Source: Microbacterium sp. BH-3-3-3 (GTDB lineage Bacteria > Actinomycetota > Actinomycetes > Actinomycetales > Microbacteriaceae). Taken from it: a stretch of 64,000 bases of DNA. Below, piece by piece: positions 16,064 to 58,222 of this stretch. A model generated the notes under the pieces. It saw only the letters and a program-made list of their open reading frames with translations. It was not told where the DNA came from and did no database searches. The DNA lies in the NCBI RefSeq assembly GCF_001792815.1, contig NZ_CP017674.1:372001-436000 (forward strand). Reading direction: 5' to 3'. Within the stretch, counting starts at the first letter, position 1. Every line of letters begins with the position of its first letter. The translations under genes and the position numbers were made by a program.

Positions 16064-16752
16064 GCGGCGTGGAACACGACGACCTGCCCGACGCCGTCTC
16101 CGCGCTGCTCGACGCCGCCGACGCCGACGTGCTGCTGCGCGATGCCGAGTCGCTGGCCGCGGGGCTCGTCGAGGCCGGCTGGACACCCGAGGTCGAGAGC
16201 GGGCGCTTCGGCGCCGACGGCTGGGACGTGCTGTCTTCGGCCCGGGCGCCCCACGTGTCGGTGTTCCTCGACGGCGAGGTGAGCCGGGTGAGGGGTGCCG
16301 CGCTCGCGGTCGCGTCGGCAATGAAGGCCGTGCCGCACCGCTGGGTGTTCGACTCCGAGGGGCCGGACTGGTCGACGTGGTCGGTAGACGACGAGCGATG
16401 GGACGCCGAGTCCGTCGACGCGCTGGAGTGGACGGGAGCCGACGTCGTCGTCACCCTCTTCACCGCGGGTGAGACGCCGGCGGGTCGGGACACGCTCCCC
16501 ACCCACCTGCACCTCGCGATCGAACGCGCCGACACTCCGTCGGACGGCCTGCCGCGCGATGACGACCGCGCGCGGCGCGTGCTGCGCGAGGGCTCCGTCA
16601 TCGATCGCTGGTACCTCACGGGCGAGGATGACCTCCCCGACGACGTGCTCACGGCCCTCGAAGCCGACCCCGACCCGCGCGTGCGCGCCGCGGCCGAGTC
16701 GGAGCGGTGGATCCGCGAGCGCTCGCTCGGCGAGCAGCCGCCGGGGCTCTGA
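16060..16752 (+). CDS. Hypothetical protein, acidic
   Basis: 230-residue acidic, Trp- and Asp-rich protein with no domain I recognise. It begins with an alternating hydrophobic/acidic helix (PDAVSALLDAAD) and has a clear alternation of strands and turns around VFDSEGPDWSTWSVDD. The GTG start overlaps the SGNH stop (GTGTGA), so coupling to the esterase is likely; a GTG three codons later is an alternative. Its last codons PGL-stop form the first copy of a 16-bp tandem duplication. Confidence 0.72.
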   Translation: MSGVEHDDLPDAVSALLDAADADVLLRDAESLAAGLVEAGWTPEVESGRFGADGWDVLSSARAPHVSVFLDGEVSRVRGAALAVASAMKAVPHRWVFDSEGPDWSTWSVDDERWDAESVDALEWTGADVVVTLFTAGETPAGRDTLPTHLHLAIERADTPSDGLPRDDDRARRVLREGSVIDRWYLTGEDDLPDDVLTALEADPDPRVRAAAESERWIRERSLGEQPPGL

Positions 16753-16769
16753 CCCGCCGGGGCTCTGAC
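16738..16769 (+). repeat. 16-bp tandem duplication over the stop codon
   Basis: CCGCCGGGGCTCTGAC occurs at 16738-16753 and again, identical, at 16754-16769. The first copy contains the TGA stop of the preceding gene; the second lies wholly downstream. Confidence 0.9.
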
Positions 16770-16813
16770 CCTTCTGCGCGCCCCGGCGCCGCGGCGATGT
16801 CCGAGCCCCTCGC

Positions 16814-16819
16814 TAGCCT
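16814..16819 (+). promoter_or_regulatory. -10 hexamer for a leaderless monooxygenase mRNA
   Basis: TAGCCT ends six bases before the ATG at 16826; no Shine-Dalgarno intervenes. Confidence 0.55.
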
Positions 16820-16825
16820 TCAGGC

Positions 16826-17128
16826 ATGACCTTCGTGAACGCCGGCACGCTCGGCACCGAACCCGGCCGACGCGATGAGCTCGTCGGCATCCTGACTCGT
16901 CGCAACGACGCGCTGCGCGAGCTGGGCTGCGAGCTGTACGAGGTGGGCACGACCGACGACGAGCCCGACACCGTGTTCGTCGTCGAGGTGTGGCGCGACA
17001 CCGAGGCGCATAAGGCCTCGCTGCGGCACCCCGACGTCGTTGCCGCGATCGCCGAGGCCAGGCCGCTGTTGAACGGGGAGTTCGGCGGCTTCCGGTTCGA
17101 GGTGTCGGGGTCGCCTCTGCGCGACTAG
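16826..17128 (+). CDS. Antibiotic biosynthesis monooxygenase (ABM) fold protein
   Basis: 100-residue dimeric ferredoxin-like ABM/quinol-monooxygenase family protein. The hallmarks are the N-terminal strand FVNAGTLGTEPGRRDEL, the helix DALRELGCELYEV, the strand VFVVEVWRDTEAHKASL and a final FRFEVSG strand. The family includes cofactor-free oxygenases and haem degraders; nothing here points to either. Its TAG stop shares the four bases CTAG (17125-17128) with the stop of the convergent methyltransferase. Confidence 0.85.
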   Translation: MTFVNAGTLGTEPGRRDELVGILTRRNDALRELGCELYEVGTTDDEPDTVFVVEVWRDTEAHKASLRHPDVVAAIAEARPLLNGEFGGFRFEVSGSPLRD

Positions 17129-17931: not shown

Positions 17932-18148
17932 CGTCCCATCGTGCCAGCCGCGTGCCGCGAGCTGCGCCCACGCCCACGCCCGGTCCCACGTCAACGCCCA
18001 GGCCGCCCACGCCCAGGCCGCATCCGCCCCCACGTCCACGCCCAGGCCCACGCCGCGCCCACGCTCCGCACCCACGCTTGCGCCCAAGCCCACGCTCCGC
18101 ACCCGCGCTTACGCCCAGGCCGCGCCCCGTGCGCCCCCGGAGCACGTC

Positions 18149-18204
18149 GAGTGTCCGGAACACGCCGCGTCCGGGCCCGCTGGCACGGCGCGTCTTGGAC
18201 ACTC
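18149..18204. repeat. Nested palindromic element, copy 1
   Basis: GAGTGTCCGGAACACGCCG on the left and a matching CGCGTCTTGGACACTC on the right flank a GC-rich loop. Each arm is itself near-palindromic (GTGTCC/GGACAC type). It shares GGAGCACGTC before it and GGGCCCGCTGGCACGGCG-like loop sequence with copy 2. Confidence 0.85.
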
Positions 18205-18400
18205 AGCAGCTTCGGCCCCGCGCGTCACTCCCGCAGTTCGCACCGGCGTTCGCGCCCGGGTCCACGCCTGCGCCTGCGCCCACGCCCATGCTCAGGCCCG
18301 GGCCCGGGCCCGGGACTAGGCCGCGCCCATGCCCGGGACTAGGCCGCGCCCATGCCCGGGCTCGCGCCTCGCCGGCGCCCCGTGAGGGCCGGAGCACGTC

Positions 18401-18456
18401 GAGTGTCCAACACACGCCGCGTCCCTGCCCGCTGGCACGGCGCGTCTTGGACACTC
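18401..18456. repeat. Nested palindromic element, copy 2
   Basis: GAGTGTCCAACACACGCCG and CGCGTCTTGGACACTC arms; same loop (CCCGCTGGCACGG) as copy 1, 252 bp away. The shared block of roughly 70 bp indicates a recent duplication. Confidence 0.85.
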
Positions 18457-18480
18457 AACGGCTTCAGCGTGAGCGTGAGG

Positions 18481-18546
18481 GCCGGGACCGAGCCGGTCAC
18501 GAGCCGGGGCCGGGCCGGGACCGAGCCGGTCACGAGCCGGGGCCGG
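18481..18546 (+). repeat. 33-bp tandem duplication
   Basis: A unit beginning GCCGGGACCGAGCCGGTCAC occurs at 18481 and 18514 with near identity; further degraded GAGCCGGG-type units continue to about 18600. Confidence 0.8.
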
Positions 18547-18638
18547 GCCGGGCGCGAGCCGGGACGAGGCGCGAGGCGCGAGCCGGGGCCGGGCGGCGGG
18601 CGGCGCGAACCGGGACCAGCACCAGGCGCCGCGCGCTG

Positions 18639-19841: not shown

Positions 19842-19937
19842 GGTCCCAGTATCCCCAGCGCCTCGGCCCCGTCGGCGGCGCCGCGCGCGGCGACCGCTCG
19901 CGCGCCCCGCTGGCCGGGGCTGTGCGACGATCACCGT

Positions 19938-20108: not shown

Positions 20109-20194
20109 GGGCCTCCCGCGCCGGCCGCCTGCGCCGCCGCCCGCGCGCGTCCGATGTCGGTGCCCGTCCTAGACTCGGTATGACGGAGGTGCGC

Positions 20195-21313: not shown

Positions 21314-21319
21314 TAGGCT
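21314..21319 (+). promoter_or_regulatory. -10 hexamer for a leaderless histidine-phosphatase mRNA
   Basis: TAGGCT ends six bases before the GTG at 21326. The preceding 280-bp gap after the sirtuin gene has no other feature I can support. Confidence 0.55.
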
Positions 21320-28438: not shown

Positions 28439-29272
28439 ATGCCGATGACAAGAGCGAACGGGAAGCCGCCGGCCGACGCCGGCGAGGCGCGCGACGAGCC
28501 CTCCGCCCGCGCCGACGAAGCGCGCGACGAGCCCTCGGCCGACGTCGGCGAAGCGCGCCCGGGCACCGCGCGCGACCGCGCCAAGGCCGATCGCCGAGCG
28601 GCGCTGCTCGCGGCCGCCGCCCGTCTCTTCGCCGAGCGCGGCTTCGACGGCGTGACCCTCGAAGACATCGGCGCCGCCGTCGGGGTCAGCGGCCCCGCGG
28701 TGTACCGCCACGTCTCCGGCAAGCAGGCGCTGCTCGGTGCGATCCTCGTGGACGTCAGCGAGCGGCTCCTCCACGGCGGGCGTGCCGTCACCGCGGCGGT
28801 GTCGGACCCCGCGACCCCGAGCACAACGGCGGAGACCCCTCACGACACATCGGGCGACGGCTCCCTCGACCGGCGTGTCGCCGAGGATCCCCGCAGCCGT
28901 GCACGCTCGGCATCCGGGGACTCCCCGTCCGAGCGGAATCCGGGCGCACCGCTGCTCCGCGCCCTCGTCGACTTCCACGTCGCGTTCGCGCTCGCCGAGG
29001 CCGACGTGATCCGCGTGCAGGACCGCGACCTCGACCGCCTCTCACCCGCCGACCGCCGTACGGTCCGCGACCTGCAGAACGCGTACGTCTCGGTGTGGAC
29101 CGCGGCTCTCGCCGACGCGGACCCGGATGCCGAGACCCCCGCCGAACGTCGCGTCCGCGCCCTGGCCTGCTTCGGTCTGATCAACTCGACCCCGCACAGC
29201 GTGCGCGGGGTGGCGGCCGCTCGCGTGCGCCCCACGCTGACGCGCATGGCCCTCGCGGCGTTGACGGCCTGA
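28439..29272 (+). CDS. TetR-family transcriptional regulator
   Basis: 277 residues, longer than the usual 190-220. The HTH lies at about 48-95 (LFAERGFDGVTLEDIGAAVGVSGPAVYRHVSGK) after a 40-residue acidic extension made of an 11-residue duplication (EARDEPSA twice, 33-bp DNA period). A second unstructured insert of about 40 residues sits between the DNA-binding and ligand domains. Divergent from accD1, so it probably represses branched acyl-CoA catabolism and is released by an acyl-CoA. The gene's last codons LAALTA-stop seed a 27-bp tandem repeat. An ATG two codons in is also possible. Confidence 0.88.
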   Translation: MPMTRANGKPPADAGEARDEPSARADEARDEPSADVGEARPGTARDRAKADRRAALLAAAARLFAERGFDGVTLEDIGAAVGVSGPAVYRHVSGKQALLGAILVDVSERLLHGGRAVTAAVSDPATPSTTAETPHDTSGDGSLDRRVAEDPRSRARSASGDSPSERNPGAPLLRALVDFHVAFALAEADVIRVQDRDLDRLSPADRRTVRDLQNAYVSVWTAALADADPDAETPAERRVRALACFGLINSTPHSVRGVAAARVRPTLTRMALAALTA

Positions 29273-29332
29273 CGCCCGCTCGCGGCGTTGACGGCCTGAC
29301 GCGCCCTCGCGGCGTTGGCGACCTGGCGCGCC
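29252..29332 (+). repeat. 27-bp tandem triplication over the tetR stop codon
   Basis: Units at 29252, 29279 and 29306 start CTCGCGGCGTTGACGGCCTG. Unit 1 is the coding 3' end with its TGA; unit 2 repeats it including the TGA; unit 3 has three substitutions. Confidence 0.92.
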
Positions 29333-29390
29333 CTCGCGCGGTGCCGCGCGTCGCCCCGCGCCTCGTCACCCGCCCGCCGCCTCCACCCTG

Positions 29391-29450
29391 TTGAGTGTCC
29401 AAGACACGCCGCACGCCGGAGCCCTCACACGGCATGTCCTGGACACTCAA
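29391..29450. repeat. Nested palindromic element, copy 3
   Basis: Ends TTGAGTGTCC and GGACACTCAA are perfect inverted repeats; inner arms AAGACACGCCG and CGGCATGTCCT continue the stem. 60 bp. Confidence 0.9.
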
Positions 29451-29504
29451 CGCGTGTCACGACGCCGCCCGGCGTCGAACCCGCCTCATTCGCCCCGCCC
29501 CCTG

Positions 29505-29564
29505 TCGAGTGTCCAAGACACGCCGCACGCCGGAGCCCACTCGCGGCATGTCCTGGACACTCAA
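29505..29564. repeat. Nested palindromic element, copy 4
   Basis: 60 bp, 114 bp from copy 3 and almost identical (TCGAGTGTCC ... GGACACTCAA, loop ACGCCGGAGCCC shared). Confidence 0.9.
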
Positions 29565-29670
29565 CCTGTGTCACGACGCCACTCGGCGTCGAACCCTGCG
29601 CCGCCTGCCCGGGTCACTCGACCCGCCTCACGACGCCGCACGGCCGCGAATCCGAACCACACCCGCGCAC

Positions 29671-29726
29671 GAGTGTCCAGGACACGCCGCAGGCCGGAGC
29701 CCCTCCCCGGCGTGTCCTGGACACTC
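29671..29726. repeat. Nested palindromic element, copy 5
   Basis: Perfect 18-bp arms GAGTGTCCAGGACACGCC (29671-29688) and GGCGTGTCCTGGACACTC (29709-29726). Within each arm GTGTCC and GGACAC are themselves complementary around one base. It ends 33 bp before the bkdC stop. Confidence 0.92.
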
Positions 29727-29759
29727 GACGCGCCCGCCACCCCAGCGCTCAGCTCGGGC

Positions 29760-32206: not shown

Positions 32207-33330
32207 CGCGACACCTCGAATCCGGCGAGGTACTGCGCGTAGTCGGCCTTCTGTTGCGCGAGCCCCGCGTGCGGCTCGGCGTAGACGTGGTCGAAGATCG
32301 TCTCGGGTGCCCGGGTGGTGGCTCCGATGCACGCGGCGCGCACCTCGGCGGCGAGGGCGTCGGCGGCACGGGCGACCTCGGCGAGGCCGCCGTCGTCGAG
32401 CATCCCCTCGGCGCGCAGGTACGCCTCGAGCCGGGCGATAGGGTCGCGCTCCGCCCAAGCCTCGACCTCGCCCGGTTCCCGGTACCGGGTGGGGTCGTCG
32501 CTGGTGGTGTGCGGGCCCATGCGGTAGGTCACGGCTTCGATGAACGAGGGTCCCTCCCCGCGGCGCGCGCGGTCGAGCGCCCACCGCATCGCCGCGACGC
32601 AGGCGAGCGCGTCGTTGCCGTCGATCCGCAGGCTCGGGATGCCGAACCCCGGCGCCCGGCCCGCGAGGGGGAACTCGGACTGCACGGTGACGGGCTCGGA
32701 GATCGCCCATTGGTTGTTCGAGCAGACGAACACCACGGGGGCGCGGAACGACGAGGCGAACACCATGGCCTCGTTCACGTCGCCCTGGCTCGTGGCCCCG
32801 TCGCCGTAATACGCGACGGCGACGTCGGTGGAGCCGTCGCGCTGCGCACCCATCGCCCACCCGGTCGCGTGCAGCGACTGGGCTCCGATGATGATCTGGG
32901 GCGGGGCGGCGTTGATGGTCGTGTGGTCGTAGGCCGAGTGCTCCTCGCCGCGCCAGGCGAGCACGTAGTCGGCGGGCTGGGCGCCGCGGCCGAGGAGCAC
33001 ACCGTGCTCGCGGTAGCTCGGGAAGACGAAGTCGCCCGGGGCGAGAGCGTGCGCGGTTCCGACCTGCGTGGCCTCCTGTCCGCGACACGGGGCCCAGAGC
33101 GCCAGCTGCCCCTGGCGTTGCAGGGCGACGCCCTCGGCATCGAGGCGGCGGGTGAGGACCATGTCGCGGTGGAGGGCCCGCAGCTCGTGCGGAGACAGGT
33201 CGCTCACCCAGGGATCGAGCGTCGGCTCGGCGACGCGGGTCCCATCCGATTCCAGGAGCCGCAGGGCGTCCTCATCGTCGTGGTGGCGCGCTCTTCCGAT
33301 CGAAGAATCCTGCGTCTGGGTGTACGTCAT
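32203..33330 (-). CDS. bkdA: Branched-chain 2-oxoacid dehydrogenase E1 alpha
   Basis: 375-residue E1 alpha chain. The thiamine-diphosphate motif is GDGATSQGDVNEA with the closing NNQWA (about 200-235); the phosphorylation-loop region is YRMGPHTTSDDPTRYR. First gene of bkdABC. Start at 33330 is taken because GGAGGG lies at the right distance; an ATG two codons upstream abuts the site. Divergent from an Lrp-family regulator, as is usual for bkd operons. Confidence 0.92.
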   Translation of the reverse strand: MTYTQTQDSSIGRARHHDDEDALRLLESDGTRVAEPTLDPWVSDLSPHELRALHRDMVLTRRLDAEGVALQRQGQLALWAPCRGQEATQVGTAHALAPGDFVFPSYREHGVLLGRGAQPADYVLAWRGEEHSAYDHTTINAAPPQIIIGAQSLHATGWAMGAQRDGSTDVAVAYYGDGATSQGDVNEAMVFASSFRAPVVFVCSNNQWAISEPVTVQSEFPLAGRAPGFGIPSLRIDGNDALACVAAMRWALDRARRGEGPSFIEAVTYRMGPHTTSDDPTRYREPGEVEAWAERDPIARLEAYLRAEGMLDDGGLAEVARAADALAAEVRAACIGATTRAPETIFDHVYAEPHAGLAQQKADYAQYLAGFEVSR

Positions 33331-33469
33331 CGTCATCCCTCCAGGTGCGGCCAGGCCCCTCGTGGGAGCGTCGGCGGTCCGGGTGCCGGCAGCGTCGCCG
33401 ACGAGGCCGACCGTACGCGCGGAATGCACCCCGCTCAAGACCTCGCCGTCATATTGAGCACACTGCCCA

Positions 33470-33497
33470 TTGCGAACGGTCGCGCCGCTGCTAATGT
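33470..33497 (+). promoter_or_regulatory. Lrp-gene promoter (-35 TTGCGA, -10 TAATGT)
   Basis: TTGCGA (33470-33475) and TAATGT (33492-33497) with a 16-bp spacer; the -10 ends eight bases before the ATG, so the transcript is leaderless or nearly so. Confidence 0.6.
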
Positions 33498-33505
33498 TTC
33501 GCAGC

Positions 33506-33979
33506 ATGAGCAAGCTCGACGCGGTCGACCTCGACCTCCTCCGCGCCCTCGCCGCCGATCCGCGGGCCACCGTCGTGGCACTCGCCGAGAAGCTCGGCCT
33601 CTCGCGCAACACCGTGCAGGCGCGCATGAGCCGCCTCGAACGCGGCGGGGTGTTCCTGTCGTACGAGCGCACGCTGTCGGCCGAGGCCCTGGGCTTCCCG
33701 ATCGAGGCGTTCCTGCAGGTGACCGTGCGCCAGGCCGAGTTGCCGGCGATCCGCGCGGAGCTCGCGAAGGTGCCCGAGGTGCTGCAGGCTCACGGCCTCA
33801 GCGGCCAGGTCGACCTTCTCGTGCGCGTCGCCTGCCGCGACACGCAGCACCTCTTCGACACCGACGCGCGCATCCTCGCGATCGAGGGCGTCGAGCGCAC
33901 CGAGACCTCGCTCGTGATGGGCGAGGTCATCGGCTACCGCGTGGGTCCGCTCATGCAGCTGGCGCGCGAGGACATCTAG
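33506..33979 (+). CDS. Lrp/AsnC-family transcriptional regulator
   Basis: 157 residues: an N-terminal winged HTH (about 5-55, LDLLRALAADPRATVVALAEKLGLSRNTVQAR) and an RAM/AsnC ligand domain (about 70-150). Divergent from bkdABC, so it probably controls branched-chain oxoacid oxidation in response to an amino acid or oxoacid. An in-frame ATG at 33494 lies inside the -10 hexamer and is unlikely. Confidence 0.92.
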   Translation: MSKLDAVDLDLLRALAADPRATVVALAEKLGLSRNTVQARMSRLERGGVFLSYERTLSAEALGFPIEAFLQVTVRQAELPAIRAELAKVPEVLQAHGLSGQVDLLVRVACRDTQHLFDTDARILAIEGVERTETSLVMGEVIGYRVGPLMQLAREDI

Positions 33980-34037
33980 GTCGGGGGCGGGCGGGTCAGG
34001 CTGCGCTCACGCACCGGCCCCACACCGCCGCACCGCC

Positions 34038-35030
34038 CTACGGCGACGGCACCACCGGGATGCTCGCCGTCTCGGCGCTCCGCTCGGCCGGACTCGCGGC
34101 ATCCAATCGCACGAGCACGACCCCGACCAGGATCAACGCTCCGCCGACGAACTGGATCGGGGCGGGCGTCTCACCGAGCAGCAGCCACGCGAAGCCCAGG
34201 GCGAAGAGCACCTCGCTGAGCCCGACGAACGACGCCAGCCTCGACCCGATGAGCGGCACCGCGATCACCCCGAGCGCGTACCCCACGGTCGTGGCGACCG
34301 CGCCGACCCACAGCAGGGGCAGGATGCCGGGGAGCTCCAGCCCCGCCAGCGTCACCGTGATCGAGGGCGCGGCGAACGGCAGCACCCCGGTGCCGACGAG
34401 CACGCCCATGAGCAGCGTGCCGGTGAGCAGGCCGCCCGCGGCGAGGGCGAGCGGGGGGAGGTCGTCGCCCGCGCGTCCGGCGATGACGAAGTACGCCGCC
34501 GCGCAGACGGCCGCGCACAGCGCGAAGATCGTGCCGAGCAGGTCGAACCGGGCTCCGCTGATGTCGACGACGAGCACGAGGCCGGCCATCGCGACGACCG
34601 AGCCGATCAGTACCGCTCTCGACGGCGCACGGCGCGTGCGTACCCAGACGGCGATGACGATCAGCACGGGGGCGATGTACTGGATGAGCAGCGCCACGGC
34701 GACGGGCATGCGCTGCATGGCGGCGAAGTAGAACAGCTGGCACCCGGCGACGGCGGTGAGACCGAACGAGACGATCAGCAAACCGTGACGGCGTAGGAAC
34801 CCGCGCTGCCGTCGGATCGCGAGCAGGAGCGCCGGCGAGAGCAGCAGGGCGGCGACGCCCATGCGCACGAGCAGCACCGCGCCGAGCGACCACCCGCCGT
34901 CGAGCAGCGGTTTGACGAACGGGCCGCTGGAGGAGAAGGCGAGGGCCGAGGCGACCGCGATCGCGAGGCCGGTGACGGCGCTGGATCCGCGATGCGTGGG
35001 GCGCGGGAGGGTGACGGACGACGTGGTCAT
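34038..35030 (-). CDS. EamA/DMT-family permease
   Basis: 330-residue drug/metabolite transporter-type protein with two EamA repeats (about 20-160 and 170-305) and about ten membrane helices; charged residues are confined to loops and the C-terminal tail. Substrate unknown; relatives export amino acids or small metabolites. Divergent from a CGNR regulator over a motif-rich 72-bp gap. Convergent with the Lrp gene, no clear terminator. Confidence 0.88.
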   Translation of the reverse strand: MTTSSVTLPRPTHRGSSAVTGLAIAVASALAFSSSGPFVKPLLDGGWSLGAVLLVRMGVAALLLSPALLLAIRRQRGFLRRHGLLIVSFGLTAVAGCQLFYFAAMQRMPVAVALLIQYIAPVLIVIAVWVRTRRAPSRAVLIGSVVAMAGLVLVVDISGARFDLLGTIFALCAAVCAAAYFVIAGRAGDDLPPLALAAGGLLTGTLLMGVLVGTGVLPFAAPSITVTLAGLELPGILPLLWVGAVATTVGYALGVIAVPLIGSRLASFVGLSEVLFALGFAWLLLGETPAPIQFVGGALILVGVVLVRLDAASPAERSAETASIPVVPSP

Positions 35031-35102: not shown

Positions 35103-35663
35103 ATGATCTTCATTCGTGACACGGAGCTCGTGCTGCGCGCCGCCGTGGAACTCGTCAACACCCTGCCGCAGACCGACACCAGCGGTGCCGACACGCTCAC
35201 CGACGTGTCCGACCTCGAGGCCTTCATCGAGCGGCACGGGTACACCGGATCCCGCACCCGCGACGCGGGCGAGCTCGCCGCCGTCCGCGGCATCCGGGGA
35301 CGCCTGCTGCCCCTCTGGAGCGTCGACCGCGACGGAGCGGTGCCCCTCGTGAACGCGATGCTCGCCGACGGCCGTGCCCTTCCTCAGCTCGTTCGGCACG
35401 ACGGGCTCGATTGGCACATCCACGCGAGCGACCCGGCCGATCCGCTGGCCACGCGCATCCTCGTCGAGACGGCGCTCGCGTTCGTCGATGTGATCCGCGC
35501 GGATGAGTACGGGCGCGTGCGGGTGTGCGACGCCGACGACTGCAACGGCGTGTACGTCGACTTCTCGAAGAACGGATCGAAGCGCTATTGCGACGCGGGC
35601 AACTGCGGCAACCGCATGAACGTCAACGCGTACCGCAAGCGCAAGGCCGACGCGCCGGTCTGA
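35103..35663 (+). CDS. CGNR zinc-finger transcriptional regulator (DUF1470/ABATE domain)
   Basis: 186 residues with an N-terminal ABATE ligand-type domain and a C-terminal CGNR zinc finger: CDADDCNGVYVDFSKN and YCDAGNCGNRMNVNAYRKRK supply the four Cys and the CGNR motif (about 142-180). Such proteins are usually stress-linked regulators of neighbouring transporters; here the divergent EamA permease is the obvious target. ATG at 35103 follows AGGAG by five bases; the ATG at 35088 is upstream of the site. The 3' end seeds a 62-bp duplication. Confidence 0.9.
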   Translation: MIFIRDTELVLRAAVELVNTLPQTDTSGADTLTDVSDLEAFIERHGYTGSRTRDAGELAAVRGIRGRLLPLWSVDRDGAVPLVNAMLADGRALPQLVRHDGLDWHIHASDPADPLATRILVETALAFVDVIRADEYGRVRVCDADDCNGVYVDFSKNGSKRYCDAGNCGNRMNVNAYRKRKADAPV

Positions 35664-35768
35664 CACACCGCGCGGCCCCGTCGACGAGATGCCCACCGAC
35701 GCGCAGGGCCGACCCGCCGGCCTGACACCGCGCGCGGCCCCGTCGACAAAGTGCCCGCCGGACCGCGA
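35645..35768 (+). repeat. 62-bp tandem duplication over the CGNR-gene stop codon
   Basis: GGCCGACGCGCCGGTCTGAC at 35645 recurs as GGCCGACCCGCCGGCCTGAC at 35707; the shared GCGCGGCCCCGTCGAC block follows in both. Copy 1 holds the real TGA, copy 2 keeps TGA at the same place. Confidence 0.88.
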
Positions 35769-36652: not shown

Positions 36653-36781
36653 CCGTGAAGTCTACGAGCAGGGTCCGACATCGCCGTGCCGGGCGGAGCG
36701 GGCTCGGGCGCCGGACCCCGTGACCCCGGCCTCTTCGCTTTCGGGCCTGCGCGCCTCGGCGGCCATGTCGGAGCCCCGCTC

Positions 36782-36787
36782 TACCGT
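36782..36787 (+). promoter_or_regulatory. -10 hexamer for a leaderless exonuclease mRNA
   Basis: TACCGT ends six bases before the ATG at 36794, with only GGGCGC between. Confidence 0.55.
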
Positions 36788-36793
36788 GGGCGC

Positions 36794-37528
36794 ATGACCC
36801 TGTGGCAGGCCGAGCCGCTCCCGCTCTTCCAGACTCCCGAGTGGACGCGTGTCGTCGGCGTCTTCGACCTCGAGACCACCGGTGTCGACGTCGTGAACGA
36901 CCGCATCGTCACCGCGCACGTCGGCGTGCTCGACGCCGACGGACAGGTGGTCGACGCCCGCGATTGGCTGGCCGATCCCGGCATCGAGATCCCCGCGGGT
37001 GCGGCCGCGATCCACGGCGTGACCACCGCGCACGCGCGCGCCGAGGGAGACCCCGCCCCGCGCGTGGTGGCCGAGGTCGTCGAAGCGCTCGGCGCGCTGT
37101 TCGCCGCCGGCATCCCCGTCGTCGCCTACAACGCCCCGTTCGATTTCTCGATGCTCAAGTACGAGGCCCTGCGCCACGGTGTCGAGCCCATCCACTCCCC
37201 CGCGCCCGTGATCGACCCGCTCGTCGTCGACAAGACGTACGACCGGTACCGGCGCGGCAAGCGCACGCTGTCGGTCGTCGCCGAGCACTACGCCGTTCCG
37301 CTCGAATCCGCCCACGAGGCCTGCGCCGACGCGGTCGCCGCGGGCCGTCTCGCCCTGGCCCTCGCCGAGAAGTTCGGCCCCTGGATGCCACCCACCCTCG
37401 ACGAACTGCACACCCGCCAGATCGCCTGGGCCCGCGCGCAAGCGGCGAGCCTCAGCGAGTACTTCGTGAAGATCGGCCGGCTGGATGCCACGGCTGCGCC
37501 GCTCGACGGGGCGTGGCCGATCCGCTGA
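36794..37528 (+). CDS. DnaQ-like 3'-5' exonuclease (DEDDh)
   Basis: 244 residues. Exo I FDLETTGVD (about 26-34, catalytic Asp and Glu), Exo II YNAPFDFSML (Asp, about 117), Exo III HEACADAVAAG (His and Asp, about 174-184). The family covers DNA polymerase III epsilon homologues and stand-alone exonucleases; with no polymerase domain this is a stand-alone enzyme in repair or nucleic-acid turnover. The last codons LDGAWPIR-stop are the first unit of the downstream minisatellite. Confidence 0.9.
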   Translation: MTLWQAEPLPLFQTPEWTRVVGVFDLETTGVDVVNDRIVTAHVGVLDADGQVVDARDWLADPGIEIPAGAAAIHGVTTAHARAEGDPAPRVVAEVVEALGALFAAGIPVVAYNAPFDFSMLKYEALRHGVEPIHSPAPVIDPLVVDKTYDRYRRGKRTLSVVAEHYAVPLESAHEACADAVAAGRLALALAEKFGPWMPPTLDELHTRQIAWARAQAASLSEYFVKIGRLDATAAPLDGAWPIR

Positions 37529-37878
37529 GGTGAGGTTCTCTTCGCGACGGGGCCCGGCCGATCCGTAGATCTGCAGCTGCGCTGAGCGACGGGGCACGGC
37601 CGGTCCGCTGATCTGCGCCTGCCCCGCTCGGTTGGGCCGGGCCGGTCCGCGGGGGTATGGCTTTCTTCACGACGCGGCACAGCCGATCCGCTGATCTGCG
37701 GCTGCTCCGCTCGGTGGGGCCGGGCCGATCCGTTGGTGTGCGGCTCTCTTCGCGACGGGGCATGGCCGATCCGTAGATCTGCAGCTGCGCCGAGCGGCGG
37801 GGCACGGCCGGTCCGCTGATCTGCGGCTGCTCCGCTCGATGGGCCTGGCTGATCCTGTGACCTCGAGCCTGGCTACTC
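37504..37878 (+). repeat. Nine-unit 41-42-bp minisatellite starting inside the exonuclease gene
   Basis: Units of the type CGACGGGGCACGGCCGATCC begin at 37504, 37545, 37587, 37629, 37670, 37712, 37753, 37795 and 37837. Unit 0 is coding and carries the TGA. Units 1 and 2 match units 6 and 7 at a 208-bp shift with few differences, implying a five-unit block duplication. Units have no unique spacers. The rest of the gap to 38037 holds nothing recognised. Confidence 0.9.
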
Positions 37879-39600: not shown

Positions 39601-39605
39601 GAACG

Positions 39606-39866
39606 GCGGCCATCGCGTATCACCCCCGACCCCGCCGACCCCGCCCCCGAGGCTGCGAGTCGCGCACACCACCCCCGCCCTCCCGCGAAACCGTGAGTCA
39701 CGCGCATCACCCCCGACCCGCCCGCGAGGCCGCCAGTCGCACACACCACCTCCGCCCCGCCCGCACGGCCGCCAGTCCCCCACACCACCCCAGCCCCGCC
39801 CGCAAGGCCGCCAGTCACGCACACCACCCCCGCCCCGCCTGTATAGCCGCGAGTCCCCCGCACCTC
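39606..39866 (+). repeat. 38-39-bp minisatellite downstream of the HNH gene
   Basis: GTC-anchored units begin at 39659, 39697, 39736, 39775, 39814 and 39853 (spacing 38, 39, 39, 39, 39), each with CACACCACCCCCGCCCCGCC-like content. A longer degenerate unit precedes at 39606. It fills almost the whole gap to the nitrilase gene. Confidence 0.9.
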
Positions 39867-39883
39867 CCTGCCAGACTGTCCCC

Positions 39884-42749: not shown

Positions 42750-43940
42750 CTACTTCCCCGCCACCTCCGCGTACAGCGCCGCCGTGGTCTCGGCGATCGC
42801 CGCCCAGCTGAAGTCGTCGATGGCGCGCTGGCGACCGGCCTGTCCGTAGGCGCGGGCGGTCTCGGCATCCGTCACCACCTCGGTGAGCACGCGGGCCAGG
42901 TCGTCGACGAAGCGCTCGGGGTCGACGGGAGTGCCCGTGCCGTCCTGCACCTGCTCGATCGGCACGAGACGGCCGGTGACGCCGTCGACGACGACCTCGG
43001 GGATCCCCCCGGTCGCCGTGCCGACGACCGCGGCACCGCACGCCATGGCCTCGAGGTTGACGATGCCCAGCGGCTCGTAGACCGAGGGGCATACGAACGT
43101 CGTCGCCGAGGTGAGGATCGCGCACAGCTCGCCCCGCGGCAGCAGTCGGTCGATCCAGACGACCCCGTCGCGCGTGGCCTGCAGTCCACGCACGAGCTCC
43201 TGCACCTCGGCCATGATCTGCGGGGTGTCGGGCGCCCCCGCGCACAGCACCAGCTGCACCTCGGGGGGCAGCTGCTCCGCCGCGCGCAGCAGGTAGGGCA
43301 GCCCCTTCTGACGGGTGATGCGCCCGACGAACACGACCGAGGGCCGCGCGGGGTCGATACCGACCGACGACAGGAACGCGTCGTCCGACACCGGATGCCA
43401 CGACTCGGTGTCGATGCCGTTGTAGATCACGCGCACCTTGGCGGGGTCGAGAGCGGGGTAGCTGCGAAGGATGTCGTCGCGCATGCCCGAGCTCACCGCG
43501 ACGACCGCGGCGGCTCCCTCGTACGCGGTCTTCTCGATGTAGCTCGACACGGCGTAGCCGCCGCCGAGCTGCTCGGCCTTCCACGGGCGCAGCGGCTCGA
43601 GGCTGTGCGCGGTGACGATGTGCGGGATGCCGTGCAACAGCGACGCGAGGTGCCCGGCGAAGTTCGCGTACCAGGTGTGGGAGTGCACGACGTCAGCGCC
43701 GGCGATGTCGGAGACGATCTCGAGGTCGGTGCCGAGCGTCTGGATCGCGCCGTTCGCGGAGGAGAGCTCCGCCGGGACGCCGTACGACGTCGTGTCGTCC
43801 TCGTCGCGCGCCGCACCGAAGGCGCGGACCTGCACCTCGGTGCCCTCGGCACGCAGCGCGCGCACCAGTTCGGTGGCGTGGACACCCGCACCGCCGTAGA
43901 TCTCCGGCGGGTATTCCTTGGTCACGATGTCGACGCGCAT
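42750..43940 (-). CDS. glgA: Actinobacterial GlgA (GT4 glycogen synthase / maltose-1-phosphate synthase)
   Basis: 396-residue GT-B glycosyltransferase of family GT4, which uses ADP-glucose. KEYPPEIYGGAGVHATELVRAL is the actinobacterial N-terminus; VFVGRITRQKG and the GT4 motif CPSVYEPLGIVNLEAMACG (about 283-301, donor Glu residues) are clear. Mycobacterial homologues of this length make alpha-maltose-1-phosphate (GlgM) rather than elongating glycogen, so that activity is equally possible. Divergent from glgC, which makes its ADP-glucose. TACCGT ends seven bases before the ATG. Confidence 0.93.
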   Translation of the reverse strand: MRVDIVTKEYPPEIYGGAGVHATELVRALRAEGTEVQVRAFGAARDEDDTTSYGVPAELSSANGAIQTLGTDLEIVSDIAGADVVHSHTWYANFAGHLASLLHGIPHIVTAHSLEPLRPWKAEQLGGGYAVSSYIEKTAYEGAAAVVAVSSGMRDDILRSYPALDPAKVRVIYNGIDTESWHPVSDDAFLSSVGIDPARPSVVFVGRITRQKGLPYLLRAAEQLPPEVQLVLCAGAPDTPQIMAEVQELVRGLQATRDGVVWIDRLLPRGELCAILTSATTFVCPSVYEPLGIVNLEAMACGAAVVGTATGGIPEVVVDGVTGRLVPIEQVQDGTGTPVDPERFVDDLARVLTEVVTDAETARAYGQAGRQRAIDDFSWAAIAETTAALYAEVAGK

Positions 43941-44004
43941 GACACGAACGGTAGTACACCCGTCAAGCGACGCGCCGCGTGTAGTCGCGGGAGTTTTCGA
44001 CCCC

Positions 44005-44010
44005 TAGTGT
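44005..44010 (+). promoter_or_regulatory. -10 hexamer for leaderless glgC mRNA
   Basis: TAGTGT ends six bases before the ATG at 44017; the glgA and glgC starts are only 76 bp apart. Confidence 0.55.
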
Positions 44011-44016
44011 GGTGCC

Positions 44017-45261
44017 ATGCCTGCAGCGCCGAAGGTCTTCGGAATCATCCTCGCCGGCGGCGAGGGAAAGCGTCTCATGCCCCTCACGGCCGACCGCGCG
44101 AAACCCGCCGTGCCGTTCGGTGGTCAGTACCGCCTGATCGACTTCGCCATCTCCAACCTCATCAACTCGGGGTTGCGTCAGCTGGTCGTGCTCACGCAGT
44201 ACAAGTCGCACAGCCTCGACCGCCACATCTCGCAGACCTGGCGCATGTCACCGATGCTGAACGCCTACGTGGCGTCGGTGCCGGCGCAGCAGCGTCTCGG
44301 CAAGCGATGGTTCTCGGGTTCGGCCGACGCGATCCTGCAGTCGATGAACCTCATCCGCGACGAGAAGCCCGACATCGTGGCCGTCATCGGTGCCGACCAC
44401 GTGTACCGCATGGACTTCAAGCAGATGCTCGACGCGCACATCGCCTCCGACGCGCGCGCCACGGTGGCCGGCATCCGTCAGCCCATCGGGCTCGCGAACC
44501 AGTTCGGCGTGATCGACACCGATCCGACCGACCCCACGAAGATCCGCGCGTTCCTCGAGAAGCCGCAGAACCCCACCGGTCTCGCCGACGCCCCGCACGA
44601 GGTGCTCGCGTCGATGGGCAACTACATCTTCGACGCCGATGCGCTCGTCGAAGCCGTCACGCACGACGGTGAGCTGCCGACCTCGGCGCACGACATGGGC
44701 GGCGACATCGTGCCCTGGTTCGTCGACCGCGGCGAAGCGGCCGTCTACGACTTCCAGCGCAACGACGTTCCGGGCTCCACGCCGCGCGACCGCTCGTACT
44801 GGCGCGACGTGGGCACGATCGAGTCGTTCTACGACGCCCACATGGACCTGATCTCGACCCTGCCGATCTTCAACCTGTACAACACCGACTGGCCGATCTA
44901 CTCCCAGACGTTCAACGCCCCGCCGGCGAAGTTCGTGCGCGACTCGGTCGGACGCATCGGCAACGCGATCGACTCGATCGTCTCGCTCGGTTCGGTGCTC
45001 TCGGGCACCCACCTCGAGCGCAGCGTCGTCGGCCCCTGGGCCCTGGCGGGTGGCGGCTCGACCATCACCGACTCGGTGCTGTTCGACAGCGTGCAGGTCG
45101 GCGCGGGAGCCCGCATCCACCGCGCGATCCTCGACAAGAACGTCGTGCTCGAACCGGGCGCCACCATCGGTGTCGACCGCGAACGCGACCTGGCGCGCGG
45201 CTTCACCGTCACCGAGACGGGCATCACCGTCGTCGGCAAGGACGTGCACGTCCACGCGTGA
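44017..45261 (+). CDS. glgC: Glucose-1-phosphate adenylyltransferase
   Basis: 414-residue ADP-glucose pyrophosphorylase, the committed step of glycogen and maltosyl-phosphate synthesis. Nucleotide-binding [16 protein letters not shown] (about 9-24), [18 protein letters not shown] (about 31-48), the glucose-phosphate pocket FLEKPQ (about 183), [13 protein letters not shown] (about 266) and a left-handed beta-helix C-domain. It faces glgA from a shared promoter region. Confidence 0.97.
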
Positions 45262-45299: not shown

Positions 45300-45335
45300 G
45301 GAAGGGGCGGTGACCGCGATGGTCACCGCCCTTCC
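45300..45335 (+). terminator. Hairpin terminator after glgC
   Basis: GGAAGGG(G)CGGTGACC pairs with GGTCACCGCCCTTCC around GCGAT; followed by GCGTTCTTAT. It separates glgC from convergent luxS. Confidence 0.75.
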
Positions 45336-45355: not shown

Positions 45356-45451
45356 TCAGACGCCCACGCGCGCGAACGCGTCGCGGCTGATCACCGCCTC
45401 CGCACCGACGTCAGATCAGACGCCCACGCGCGCGAACGCGTCGCGGCTGAT
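45356..45451. repeat. 60-bp tandem duplication over the luxS stop codon
   Basis: A 36-bp block starting TCAGACGCCCACGCGCGCGA is identical at 45356-45391 and 45416-45451. The second copy is the coding 3' end of luxS (TCA is its stop on the minus strand); the first lies downstream of the gene. Confidence 0.93.
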
Positions 45452-48266: not shown

Positions 48267-48676
48267 GGGTGAGACTCCTGCGTTTGCGAGGGACGGAACC
48301 GACTCAGCCTACCGAGCCGACGTCCGGGCCGCGGAGCGCGGGGGTGGGTGCGGGCGTGAGGCGCAGGGCGCAGGCGTGAGGCGCGGAGCGCGGGTGCCGG
48401 GCGCGGGGTCGGGGTCGGGCCCGGGGTCGGGGTCGGGGTCGGGCCCGGGGTCGGACTCGGGCTCGGACTCGGGCTCGGGCTCGGGGTGCAGGTTCGAGGC
48501 GCGGCCGCGGAGCACCGGCACGGAGCACGGCCCCCACGACGACGGGCGCGGGGGAACCCGACGCCACCTCTCCGCGCGCCCTCACCACACCACAGCCCGC
48601 TTCCCGCGAGGCCCGAGGTTTGACACGGCCCGAGCGGCGCTGGAACTCTGGAGCGACGCACGATGAAAGGGACCCC
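48267..48676. other. Divergent intergenic region with G-rich hexamer repeats
   Basis: Between fabG and the DUF4190 gene. 48404-48486 is a run of GGGGTC, GGGCCC and GGACTC hexamers on the plus strand, capable of G-quadruplex or slipped structures. 48340-48400 holds two copies of GCGTGAGGCGC-type units. No gene supported. Confidence 0.7.
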
Positions 48677-51077: not shown

Positions 51078-51163
51078 GCGCGACGGCCTCGATCGCCGCC
51101 GCGCGCAGTCAGCTCCGCAATCGAGGACGCCGTCAGCAACGGGCGCGTTCGTGATGACCGCGC

Positions 51164-51219
51164 TCAGGTCAGCGCGCTCAGGCCAGCGTGATCAGGCCAG
51201 CGTGATCAGGCCAGCGTGA
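51164..51219. repeat. 14-bp tandem array over the ABC-F stop codon
   Basis: TCAGGCCAGCGTGA is identical at 51178, 51192 and 51206, and a variant copy starts at 51164. The copy at 51206 is the coding 3' end; its TCA is the TGA stop on the minus strand. Confidence 0.94.
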
Positions 51220-52804
51220 TCAAATCCGCGTAGTCGCGACCCCAGATGTCCTCGACGCCGTCGGGCAGGATCAGCACGCGCTCGGGGTTCAGCGCCTCGA
51301 CGGCCCCCTCGTCGTGCGAGACGAGCACGACGGCACCCTCGTAGTGCGAGAGCGCCCCGAGAATTTCTTCGCGCGAGGCCGGGTCGAGGTTGTTCGTGGG
51401 CTCGTCAAGCAGCAGCATGTTCGCCGACGACACCACGAGGGTCGCGAGCGACAGACGGGTCTTCTCGCCGCCCGAGAGCACCCCGGCGGGCTTCAGCACG
51501 TCGTCGCCGACGAACAGGAACGAACCCAGCACCTTGCGGGCCTCGGTGGCGGTGATGTGCGGCGCCGACGACATCATGTTCTCGAGCACCGAACGATTCA
51601 CGTCGAGGTTCTCGTGCTCCTGGGCGTAATAGCCGACCTTCAGGCCGTGCCCGGGCTCGAGCTGACCGGTGTCGGGCTGGTCGACGCCGGCGAGGATACG
51701 CAGCAGCGTCGTCTTCCCCGCACCGTTCAAGCCCAGGATCACCACGCGGGAGCCGCGGTCGATCGCGAGGTCGACGTCGGTGAAGATCTCGAGCGAGCCG
51801 TACGACTTCGACAGTCCGGATGCCATGAGCGGGGTCTTTCCGCACGGCGCGGGCTTGGGGAAGCGGAGCTTCGCCACGCGCTCTTCGGCGCGCACCTCGT
51901 CGAGTCCCGACAGCATCTTCTCGGCGCGCGCGACCATCTGGTGCGCGGCCGCGGCCTTCGAGGCCTTCGCGCCGAAGCGAGCCGCCTGCAGCTGCAGAGC
52001 GGTGGCCTTCTTCTCGACGTTGACGCGCTCCTTCTTGCGGCGCTCCTCGTCGGCCACCCGCTGGCGCAGGTAGTTCTTCCAGTTCATGTTGTAGACGTCG
52101 ATGACCTGACGGTTCGCGTCGAGGTAGAACACGCGGTTGACCGTCTCGCCGACCAGCTCCACGTCGTGCGAGATCACGATGAGCCCGCCCTTGTACCCCT
52201 TGAGGAACTCGCGCAGCCACACGACGCTGTCGGCGTCGAGGTGGTTGGTCGGCTCGTCGAGGATCATCGTCTGGGCGTCCGAGAACAGGATGCGCGCGAG
52301 TTCGATGCGGCGACGCTGTCCTCCCGAGAGGGTCTTCAGCGGCTGCTCGAGGATGCGGTCGGGAAGCGAGAGGTTGTGGGCGATGGATGCCGCCTCGGCC
52401 TCGGCCGCGTACCCGCCCTGCGCCTCGAACTGCTCGGTGAGGGTGCCGTACTTCTTCATGGCCTTCGCGGCCACGGCGGGGTCGTCGTCGCCCATCGCCA
52501 TCGAGGCCTCGTGCATGCCGAGCGCCAGTGAGCCGAGGCCGCGGGCGTCGAGGATGCGCGTACGGGCCAGCATCTCGGGGTCGCCCGAGCGGGGGTCCTG
52601 CGGCAGGTAGCCCAGTTCGCCCACGCGGTCGACGCCGCCGTTCGCGGGGAGCAGGTCGCCCGCGAGCACCTTGGTCAGGGTCGTCTTCCCCGCGCCGTTG
52701 CGCCCGACGAGGCCGATCTTGTCGCCGTCGGAGACGCGGAACGCCACGTCGGACATGAGCACGCGGGCACCCACGCGGATCTCGAGGTCGTGCACGGCGA
52801 GCAC
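51206..52804 (-). CDS. ABC-F family ATPase
   Basis: 532 residues with two ABC domains and no membrane part: GRNGAGKTTLTKVL, LSGGQRRRIELARIL, ILDEPTNHLD in the first; GLNGAGKTTLLRIL, LSGGEKTRLSLATLV, LLDEPTNNLD in the second. The basic linker (about 255-320, ADEERRKKERVNVEKK) inserts near the ribosomal P/E sites in this family. Could be a translation factor (EttA/Uup-like) or a ribosome-protection protein. GTG at 52804 is preferred since residues upstream are not family-like. Confidence 0.9.
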   Translation of the reverse strand: MLAVHDLEIRVGARVLMSDVAFRVSDGDKIGLVGRNGAGKTTLTKVLAGDLLPANGGVDRVGELGYLPQDPRSGDPEMLARTRILDARGLGSLALGMHEASMAMGDDDPAVAAKAMKKYGTLTEQFEAQGGYAAEAEAASIAHNLSLPDRILEQPLKTLSGGQRRRIELARILFSDAQTMILDEPTNHLDADSVVWLREFLKGYKGGLIVISHDVELVGETVNRVFYLDANRQVIDVYNMNWKNYLRQRVADEERRKKERVNVEKKATALQLQAARFGAKASKAAAAHQMVARAEKMLSGLDEVRAEERVAKLRFPKPAPCGKTPLMASGLSKSYGSLEIFTDVDLAIDRGSRVVILGLNGAGKTTLLRILAGVDQPDTGQLEPGHGLKVGYYAQEHENLDVNRSVLENMMSSAPHITATEARKVLGSFLFVGDDVLKPAGVLSGGEKTRLSLATLVVSSANMLLLDEPTNNLDPASREEILGALSHYEGAVVLVSHDEGAVEALNPERVLILPDGVEDIWGRDYADLITLA

Positions 52805-53050: not shown

Positions 53051-53072
53051 CTTAGATCACAGGAGGCTCTCT

Positions 53073-54095: not shown

Positions 54096-54127
54096 TCCCC
54101 CACCCCGCACACCGGACCGCGCCCATC

Positions 54128-56295: not shown

Positions 56296-56347
56296 TCGCG
56301 ACCCGAAGCACCGTCCCGCCGACCCACGCCGACCGGGGAGGCCTCTC

Positions 56348-57202
56348 GTGACCGCGAACCGCACGCTCTCGGCCGAGAAGCTCACCCTCTCGTACGGCGA
56401 CCGCACGATCATCGACGAGCTCGACCTCGAGCTGCCCGCCGGGCGGATCACCGCCATCGTCGGTGCGAACGGGTGCGGCAAGTCCACGCTGCTGCGCGCC
56501 CTCGCGCGCCTGCTGCCCCCCAAGACCGGGCGCGTCATCCTCGATGGGAAGGCGCTGCACGAACGCCCCTCCAAAGAGATCGCCCGCATCCTGGGCCTGC
56601 TCCCCCAGAGCCCGATCGCCCCCGAGGGCATCGCCGTCGCCGACCTCGTCGGCCGGGGACGCCACCCCCACCAGCGCGCTCTGGCTCGGTGGAGCGCGCG
56701 CGACTACGAGGTCGTCGCCGAGGCTCTCGCGGCCACCGGCATCAGCGACCTGGCCGACCGCTCCATCGACGAGTTGTCCGGCGGCCAGCGCCAGCGGGTG
56801 TGGATCGCGATGGCTCTCGCGCAAGAGACCGACATCCTGCTGCTCGACGAGCCGACGACCTTCCTCGACGTGGCCCACCAGGTCGAGGTGCTCGACCTGC
56901 TGACCGACCTCAACCGCGACCGCGGCACCACCACCGTGATGGTGCTGCACGACATGAACATGGCCGCGCGCTACGCCGACCACCTGGTGGCCCTGCGCGA
57001 CGGCCGCATCGTCGCCGCCGGAGACCCGAGCGCGGTCATGACCTCCGAGCTCATCGCCGACGTCTTCGGCCTCGATGCCCTTGTCGTCCCCGACCCCGTC
57101 TCGGGCACGCCCCTCGTCCTCCCCCGCGGTCGCCACCACGTGAGCGCCCGCGTTCCCGCCCCCGACGCCTCGCCGGAGACCCTCGATGCCCTCCACCCCT
57201 GA
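56348..57202 (+). CDS. Iron-siderophore ABC transporter ATP-binding protein
   Basis: 284 residues: Walker A GANGCGKSTLLRAL (about 38-51), Q-loop LLPQSP, signature LSGGQRQRVWIAMAL (about 139-153), Walker B LLLDEPTTFLD and H-loop MVLHDMN. FepC/FecE type. GTG start with GGGAGG eight bases upstream. Its 3' end overlaps the next gene by 17 bp. Confidence 0.94.
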   Translation: MTANRTLSAEKLTLSYGDRTIIDELDLELPAGRITAIVGANGCGKSTLLRALARLLPPKTGRVILDGKALHERPSKEIARILGLLPQSPIAPEGIAVADLVGRGRHPHQRALARWSARDYEVVAEALAATGISDLADRSIDELSGGQRQRVWIAMALAQETDILLLDEPTTFLDVAHQVEVLDLLTDLNRDRGTTTVMVLHDMNMAARYADHLVALRDGRIVAAGDPSAVMTSELIADVFGLDALVVPDPVSGTPLVLPRGRHHVSARVPAPDASPETLDALHP

Positions 57203-58094
57203 CACCGCGCGGTTCTTCCGCGTCCGCGTCGCCCGCATCACCGACCTCACCCCCAGCTTCCGTCGGTTCACCTTCACCGGCGACGACCTGCACGAGTACG
57301 GCGACCCCGGCTTCGACCAGCGCATCAAGGTGGTCTTCCCCACCGACGACCTGGGGCTGGATGCCATGCCCACGGGCGCGGACTGGTGGACCGACTGGCG
57401 CGCCCTGCCCGACGAGCGCCGCCTGCCCTTCCGCACCTACACGACGCGGGCGGTGCGACGCGGCGACCGTGAGGTCGACATCGACATGGTCGCGCACGAG
57501 GTGATCGGACCGGCGTCGGCGTGGATCGAGAACGCGCGCCCCGGCGATGAGGTGCTCATCTTCGCCCCCACCATCGCCCTCTCCGACGTGAGTTTCGGCG
57601 TCGACTTCGTTCCGCCCGCGCAGACCGGAGAGTACCTGCTCGCCGGCGACGAGACGGCAGCTCCCGCCATCGCCGTCATCCTCGAGCAGCTGCCCCCGGA
57701 TGCCACCGGCACGGTCGTGCTCGAAGTGCCCACGCCCGAGGACTGCGCGTATCTCCCGCGGCACCCGGGCTTCTCGTTCCGCGTCGCTGCCCGCGCGGGC
57801 GGCGACCGCCACGCGCACCTGGTCACGGCGACGCGCGACGCGGCCTTCGCCCTCACCCCCGAGGGCCACGGCGACGAGGTCGAAGAGATCGACATCGACG
57901 AGGACATGCTCTGGGAGGTTCCCCGCACGGCCAAGGGCGGCGCGGCGCTGAAGAAGGCCCCGCTGTACGCCTGGCTCGCGGGCGAGGCGTCGGCGATCAA
58001 GGCGCTGCGCCGGCACCTCGTCACCGAGCGCGGCGTCGACCGCCGCGCCGTGGCGTTCATGGGCTACTGGCGCACGGGTCGCGCCGAGTACTGA
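57186..58094 (+). CDS. Siderophore-interacting protein (FAD-dependent ferric-siderophore reductase)
   Basis: 302 residues of the SIP family, which uses NADPH or ferredoxin and FAD to reduce ferric siderophores and release iron in the cytosol. FAD-binding domain with FRTYTTRAV (about 81-89, RxYT), and C-terminal SIP domain with AWLAGEASAIKALRRHL and AFMGYWRTGRAEY. Completes the uptake operon: capture, import, release. Confidence 0.94.
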   Translation: MPSTPDTARFFRVRVARITDLTPSFRRFTFTGDDLHEYGDPGFDQRIKVVFPTDDLGLDAMPTGADWWTDWRALPDERRLPFRTYTTRAVRRGDREVDIDMVAHEVIGPASAWIENARPGDEVLIFAPTIALSDVSFGVDFVPPAQTGEYLLAGDETAAPAIAVILEQLPPDATGTVVLEVPTPEDCAYLPRHPGFSFRVAARAGGDRHAHLVTATRDAAFALTPEGHGDEVEEIDIDEDMLWEVPRTAKGGAALKKAPLYAWLAGEASAIKALRRHLVTERGVDRRAVAFMGYWRTGRAEY

Positions 58095-58111
58095 CGCGAC
58101 GACCCGCCCGC

Positions 58112-58222
58112 GTCGGGCGCGGAGCGCCGATGCATCCCCGTCGGGCGCGGAGCGCCGATGCACCCGCGTCAGGCGCGCGGACCCACCCGCGTCAGGCGCG
58201 GCGGGCCAGCGCGCCGATGCGT
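58112..58222. repeat. Tandem repeats (28, 28, 23 bp) running into the aminotransferase stop
   Basis: Units start GTCGGGCGCGG (58112, 58140) and GTCAGGCGCG (58168, 58191). The first two are nearly identical (…GAGCGCCGATGCA). The unit at 58191 contains TCA, the minus-strand stop of the following gene, and continues into its coding end (GCGCCGATGC). Confidence 0.87.

Follow-up and report, generated by a model that had tools for sequence, protein, structure and literature searches.

Stop-spanning tandem repeats in a Microbacterium chromosome, probable survivors of random small duplications filtered by selection

In mycobacteria, the short repeats known as MIRU lie in the gaps between genes, touch the stop codons of upstream genes, and belong to one sequence family. 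We analysed stop-touching repeats in a stretch of 64,000 nucleotides (bases 372,001-436,000; "the window" means the whole of this stretch) of the chromosome of Microbacterium sp. BH-3-3-3, a single contig of 3,508,491 bp, where seven genes end in a repeat that contains their own stop codon. Repeats that overlap stop codons have been published before, for Yersinia (PMC3689786) and for Borgs (PMC9879509). In the parts of the Yersinia pestis survey considered here, 10 of 88 variable-number tandem repeats (VNTRs) overlap stops and six overlap starts, one of the six being a CRISPR (clustered regularly interspaced short palindromic repeats) locus, and all 24 VNTRs within open reading frames (ORFs) have units divisible by three (PMC3689786). 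In the same parts, the authors reason that overlap with a stop should matter less and that overlap with a start is under purifying selection, and their measurements of population diversity were low at some stop-overlapping loci (PMC3689786). For the Microbacterium repeats we favour, with a rough probability of 0.78 for the reading as a whole, small tandem duplications that arise at random and are then sifted by selection, with no process directed at stop codons.

The seven stop-containing arrays had been proposed in a first-pass annotation, and direct reading together with an independent array scan confirmed all of them; three of the genes lie on the minus strand, which corrects that annotation. 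They are as follows.

16738..16771, plus strand: 16-bp unit, 2.1 copies, containing the stop (16750-16752) of gene 16060-16752, without family match
29249..29338, plus strand: 27-bp unit, 3.3 copies, containing the stop (29270-29272) of a TetR-family gene
35639..35760, plus strand: 62-bp unit, 2 copies, containing the stop (35661-35663) of an ABATE/CGNR gene
37494..37834, plus strand: 42-bp unit, 8.5 copies, with an 83-bp higher-order period, containing the stop (37526-37528) of a dnaQ-like exonuclease gene
45356..45451, minus strand: block of about 36 bp repeated at 60-bp spacing, containing the stop (45416-45418) of luxS
51159..51222, minus strand: 14-bp unit, 4.6 copies, containing the stop (51206-51208) of an ABC-F ATPase gene
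58111..58200, minus strand: array of 28-bp and 23-bp units, the 23-bp part containing the stop (58192-58194) of a PatB-like lyase gene

Family matches were found for six of the seven genes (dnaQ-like exonuclease, TetR, ABATE/CGNR, LuxS, ABC-F and PatB-like lyase). For the gene that ends at 16752, Pfam and NCBIfam gave none, and its frame therefore rests on our purpose-written gene caller; its array is just 34 bp in total. The luxS case is better called a spaced direct repeat, because only about 36 of its 60 bp recur; the spacer has diverged, and Tandem Repeats Finder (TRF) did not list it at a score of at least 30. At the last site, the strongest part of the array (28 bp, 58111-58177) stops short of the stop codon, which is reached by the overlapping 23-bp part (58152-58200), and a plus-strand stop upstream of this array (58092-58094) lies outside it. 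With the exception of the luxS repeat, these are head-to-tail copies at different loci. The units are unrelated, as had been claimed: all-against-all BLAST (E <=1e-4) of the sampled arrays of the source genome gave 10 related pairs, none of which includes any of the seven. In the convergent gap beyond luxS there is also a near-perfect hairpin (45301-45335), likely a terminator, and similar hairpins were seen by eye in the flanks of relatives.

Genes were called with a codon-phase Markov model and interval scheduling; gene starts and small genes rest on this caller. Arrays were found with an ungapped scanner covering periods 10-200, merged over periods, at a score of at least 16. A first census, at a score of at least 20 and with one best period taken at each site, had overlooked three of the seven arrays, one by threshold and two by period choice, and merging periods at the lower score recovered them. 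Besides the window we sampled 43 stretches of the source genome (39 systematic 20-kb stretches and four near dif) and 80 stretches of 25 relatives, 123 in total. The relatives contributed 20 stretches from G007, 10 each from G004, G013, G027 and G017, and the 20 kb around the dnaQ-like gene in each of 20 near relatives; the nearest genomes found show about 85-91% identity in the protein compared, and the relatives are phylogenetically non-independent. Stretches of low called coding fraction were dropped because the caller fails on low-GC islands. At a threshold of 0.8, the placement test kept 100 of the 123 stretches and dropped 23, and the first source-genome census dropped seven of 39. The same threshold applied to gap-orientation densities and to the rest-of-genome lines (source genome and G007) of the density comparison. 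A threshold of 0.75 applied to the tests of unit length and frame and of association with palindromes and hairpins. No coding filter was applied to the 45-nt end-recurrence tests, to the near-dif densities of relatives or to array counts in near relatives and at control loci. Seven source-genome stretches (L104, L106, L112, L114, L121, L130 and L134) had a low called coding fraction (0.45-0.75), five of them also a lower GC content (0.63-0.68); such stretches are probably islands with different codon use that the caller missed.

Do arrays fall on stop codons more often than chance placement would give? Under our null, the repeat unit fell at random anywhere except wholly within a gene. An earlier array-level null, for which a stop at any point of the array sufficed, gave an expectation of 13.6 stop arrays outside the window, where eight were seen; we replaced it with the unit-level null because a neutral duplication must carry the stop in its first unit. 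Among 104 arrays outside the window that were not internal to genes, 15 spanned a stop, against 14.9 expected (observed/expected by set: rest of the source genome 5/5.2; G007, G004 and G013 2/2.7; G027 and G017 2/1.2; near relatives 6/5.8). A start alone was spanned once, against 15.2 expected (Poisson 4e-6). For the remaining classes, observed and expected numbers were 1 vs 4.2 for both codons, 83 vs 67.9 for purely intergenic and 4 vs 1.7 for edge arrays. Thus the proposal that stop codons seed repeats fails outside the window, where stops had no detectable attraction for them, a statement that falls under the joint probability given above. The first-pass annotation had named beforehand, as evidence against its proposal, equal frequencies at start codons or at random intergenic sites; outside the window, stops and random intergenic sites proved equal, and starts did not.

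The arrays also carry signs of selection. Unit length is divisible by three in 79 of 81 arrays within genes, but in only about one third (10/28) of stop-array pairs (from 27 separate arrays, seven of them in the window; best-scoring period, with the dnaQ-like array scored as 83 rather than 42 bp). The stop lies within the first unit, with 3 nt of slack, in 27 of these 28 pairs, and the protein is therefore unaltered. Per kb of gap, arrays are most frequent between convergent genes, less so between codirectional ones and least between divergent ones, in the rest of the source genome (0.74/0.49/0.07), in five sampled genomes (0.67/0.30/0.16) and in the window (2.79/1.66/0.72). The last 45 nt of a gene were refound in its own downstream gap for six of 43 window genes, compared with 0/43 in a mispaired control, so that gene-end repeats in the window exceed chance similarity; the PatB-like lyase gene (stop at 58192) is the one of the seven missed by this test, which is stricter than the array scan. 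Elsewhere such recurrence was found for 4/448 genes in the rest of the source genome (control 2/447) and 3/507 in other sampled stretches (control 0/507), and for 19/324 in the matching region of the 20 near relatives plus four G007 stretches (control 0/323). Conversely, the first 45 nt were refound upstream for 0/473 genes in the rest of the source genome and 0/628 in other sampled stretches (controls 0 and 0). The suggestion that slippage is tolerated only after the stop was thus largely right, with starts avoided, frame kept within genes and arrays densest in convergent gaps; the avoidance of starts is not absolute.

These results are consistent with the following scheme. Small tandem duplications, with units of about 12-200 bp, would form chromosome-wide, the likeliest route being slippage or microhomology-mediated duplication as the DNA is replicated, and selection would purge those that alter a protein or double a start region. 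The survivors would be in-frame arrays within genes, gap arrays, chiefly 3' of genes, and stop-straddling arrays. The last leave the protein unchanged because the first copy retains the original stop; their later copies would be untranslated, and further slippage could lengthen the array. Among 38 young two-copy non-coding duplications, the median overrun of the match past the unit was 3 bp, and 20 had an overrun of at least 3 bp. The corresponding share for random non-coding positions is 9%, and an excess of this kind is what short microhomologies would give. This overrun is the sole evidence on mechanism, and slippage or microhomology-mediated duplication is therefore something we only infer.

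Several observations weigh against this reading. In the window, seven of the 14 non-internal arrays span a stop, against 2.0 expected (Poisson 0.0045; post hoc), and this share exceeds the 15/104 outside (Fisher p 0.0045; the window was picked for its repeats). The window shows seven cases partly because the region is array-rich, but its high stop share is not accounted for by array richness; we infer that the excess is owed partly to the window having been singled out. Recurrence of 3' ends in the matching region (19/324) is far above that in the rest of the source genome (4/448; p 1e-4). The 3' end of the dnaQ-like gene recurs downstream in 6/21 cases there (p 6e-4 vs other genes; the gene was chosen post hoc and the relatives are non-independent), and some gene 3' ends look hot. 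Start regions are not wholly spared: the first 45 nt were refound upstream for 3/46 window genes at the lowest score (control 0) and for 6/382 genes in the matching region (control 1), and with the coding filter lifted, two start-spanning and two both-spanning arrays stand among the 63 of the 20 near relatives. Unit length is divisible by three in 55 of 118 intergenic arrays, above one third, which may reflect missed small genes. The overrun figures may be inflated by low-complexity arrays, and all the evidence comes from sequence comparison, with no mutation seen directly.

The alternative that survives best would add to duplication and selection rather than replace them. It holds that duplications are formed or kept more often near 0.37-0.44 Mb of the source genome, 15-79 kb from dif, perhaps where replication forks meet, the stop-spanning arrays being a by-product; we regard such a hot spot as a tentative possibility, somewhat less probable than its opposite. 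Outside gene interiors, the 64 kb of the window hold 14 arrays, compared with 34 in 718 kb elsewhere (p 2e-5, for a window chosen for its repeats). The matching region of the 20 near relatives has 63 in 400 kb, and a coding fraction of at least 0.8 leaves 14 of these stretches, with 36 in 280 kb; the 60 control loci around three conserved control genes in the same genomes have nine in 226 kb. Twelve of the 60 are unclear orthologues (best hits 35-64% identity); the 48 clearly orthologous loci have nine arrays in 180 kb, an excess for the matching region of p 5e-4 per base (1e-5 with all 60 loci) and 0.007 per non-coding base. The control loci were, however, chosen around genes that are conserved, and for one of the 60 the dif of its genome is about 65 kb away.

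For a link to dif itself, the source genome, the near relatives and G017 are suggestive, and G007, G004, G013 and G027 show nothing of it. A dif-like XerCD site lies at 357,149-357,171 (stretch L250), 15 kb left of the window, and the strand bias of called genes flips around it, from mostly plus to mostly minus; dnaA is at 1.947 Mb. With at most three mismatches, all 12 genomes searched carry the site, 11 of them in a single copy, and it is very similar to the Frankia dif given in the part of PMC3025954 considered. An E. coli-like dif pattern had no match in the window, and ATTATGTCAA with one mismatch gave none. The single near-dif stretch of G017 has three arrays in 20 kb, or 15 per 100 kb against 3.3-5.0 further off. 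However, near dif but outside the window the source genome has eight arrays in 98 kb, compared with 26 in 620 kb elsewhere (p 0.08). In G007 there is no excess near dif, and the one near-dif stretch each of G004, G013 and G027 is free of arrays outside genes. The region is array-rich in G305 although it lies 170 kb from dif there, and has no arrays outside genes in G359 and G063, where it lies 60-74 kb from dif.

Within the region, many gaps carry an array in more than one genome, with a period that differs between genomes. The gap matching 33979-34038 has an array in 7/15 genomes and that matching 36652-36794 in 9/21; none was found in the gaps matching 33330-33506 (0/20 genomes) and 43940-44077 (0/20). 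The 3' end of the dnaQ-like gene is refound downstream in six of 21 relatives as well as in the source genome. Among these seven recurrences, flanks are alike over 70 bp only between G061 and G305; the other flank matches, of 21-45 bp, resemble the copied gene end, so that several of the events look independent. The luxS repeat is common to G156 (149 bp, 84%) and perhaps G361, and that in G033 looks independent. That in this Microbacterium clade the conserved block from the dnaQ-like gene to luxS near the terminus is a hot zone, where small tandem duplications keep forming and several species have each duplicated the same 3' ends and stops on their own, with unit lengths that differ, is a shade more doubtful than the hot spot itself.

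Activity at gene ends, such as termination, R-loops or terminator hairpins, has also been considered as a maker of stop-seeded repeats, and we consider this improbable. The half of the window's non-internal arrays that span stops, the preference of arrays for convergent gaps and the several spacings at which the dnaQ-like 3' end recurs in relatives would suit it, as would stems of score at least 12 within 60 bp of arrays (7/45 in the source genome, 2.8 expected; 6/66 in relatives, 2.5 expected). However, stop-spanning arrays match random placement outside the window, also where the near relatives are rich in arrays, and strong hairpins stand beside just 13 of the 111 arrays tested. With hairpins only mildly enriched, the mechanism at transcript ends put forward in the first-pass annotation is not needed.

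It is very unlikely that arrays are kept for extra in-frame stops. The back-up stop noted earlier in the 27-bp case is real, with the next in-frame stop nine codons on, and four of the seven genes have one within 20 codons, compared with a sample median of 62; but any in-frame copy gives a near stop automatically, and with units divisible by three in 10/28 stop-array pairs a selected function is not borne out. Least probable of all is a MIRU-like repeat family or mobile element inserting at stops: a dispersed palindromic element adjoins one of the seven arrays (29249-29338), but the seven units are mutually unrelated and no copy of the element was detected in the gaps of the other six. Of the earlier view that the repeats reflect a process and not a repeat family, the second half stands, and the first, as a process at stop codons, is unsupported outside the window.

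The window has 21 arrays in all, seven stop-spanning, seven purely intergenic, seven within genes and none start-spanning. The intergenic ones are as follows.

15015..15080, no strand: array, 31 bp, in a divergent gap, without a stop
18057..18121, no strand: array, 31 bp, without a stop
18298..18360, no strand: array, 23 bp, without a stop
18479..18563, no strand: array, 33 bp, without a stop
29386..29596, no strand: 114-bp unit, 1.9 copies, with the dispersed palindromic element in each unit
39678..39868, no strand: array, 39 bp, ending 15 bp ahead of a called start
48397..48487, no strand: array of 6/12/18 bp in a divergent gap

The palindromic element, of about 60 bp, occurs in the window at 18146-18205, 18398-18458, 29390-29450, 29504-29564 and 29671-29730; the minimum free energy (MFE) of the 75-base stretch 29386-29460 is -33.7. 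It has 19 sites in eight of 44 source-genome stretches (window included), all non-coding, and none in reversed control DNA; the relatives have six sites in five of 40 stretches. Its window sites had no Rfam match at the gathering threshold, the sole match of that scan of the window being a tRNA gene (9838-9923). We take the element to resemble a REP-type family. It lies inside or within 100 bp of 13/48 source-genome arrays outside gene interiors (2.3 expected), and near 1/84 arrays in relatives (0.58 expected). Examples of arrays beside it are as follows.

Window 18057-18563
L269 18939-19126, a further stop-spanning array, with a 60-bp unit and a score of 95, about 4 kb left of dif
L122 3557-3607
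L117 14549-14580

We had also considered hairpin stalling as the main cause, and rejected it because few arrays have strong hairpins and the palindrome lies near just one array in relatives.

If random duplication is filtered in the way proposed, short duplications that touch a gene boundary have unequal fates, with stop-spanning ones invisible to translation and start-spanning ones mostly purged. Gene 3' ends would then be a reservoir of duplicated, non-coding C-terminal sequence, and the matching region in relatives a replicated natural experiment on why some neighbourhoods gather duplications faster than others.

The closest described systems differ from the Microbacterium arrays in several respects. 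MIRU are one shared unit at many loci, and the seven arrays here have unrelated units. The direct repeats of the Beggiatoaceae are, in the part of the report considered, a single 7-bp sequence (TAACTGA) with built-in stops, pointing mostly towards start codons (PMC4679880). The Yersinia survey, in its parts considered, has no random-site placement test (PMC3689786); here the arrays are mostly imperfect and were compared between species. More widely, within our library and the search terms used, the parts of the literature considered held no random-placement test for stop-spanning arrays and no tandem-array hot zones near dif. Borg tandem repeats are alike in being rapidly evolving, independently arising arrays whose in-ORF units are divisible by three; in the parts considered, their units are perfect, A-rich and borne on extrachromosomal archaeal elements (PMC9879509), in contrast to the imperfect arrays of this GC-rich bacterial chromosome. 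Given the precedents in Yersinia and Borgs, the stop-overlap pattern is thus of a known kind, to which the present analysis adds the placement test and the recurrence within the region.

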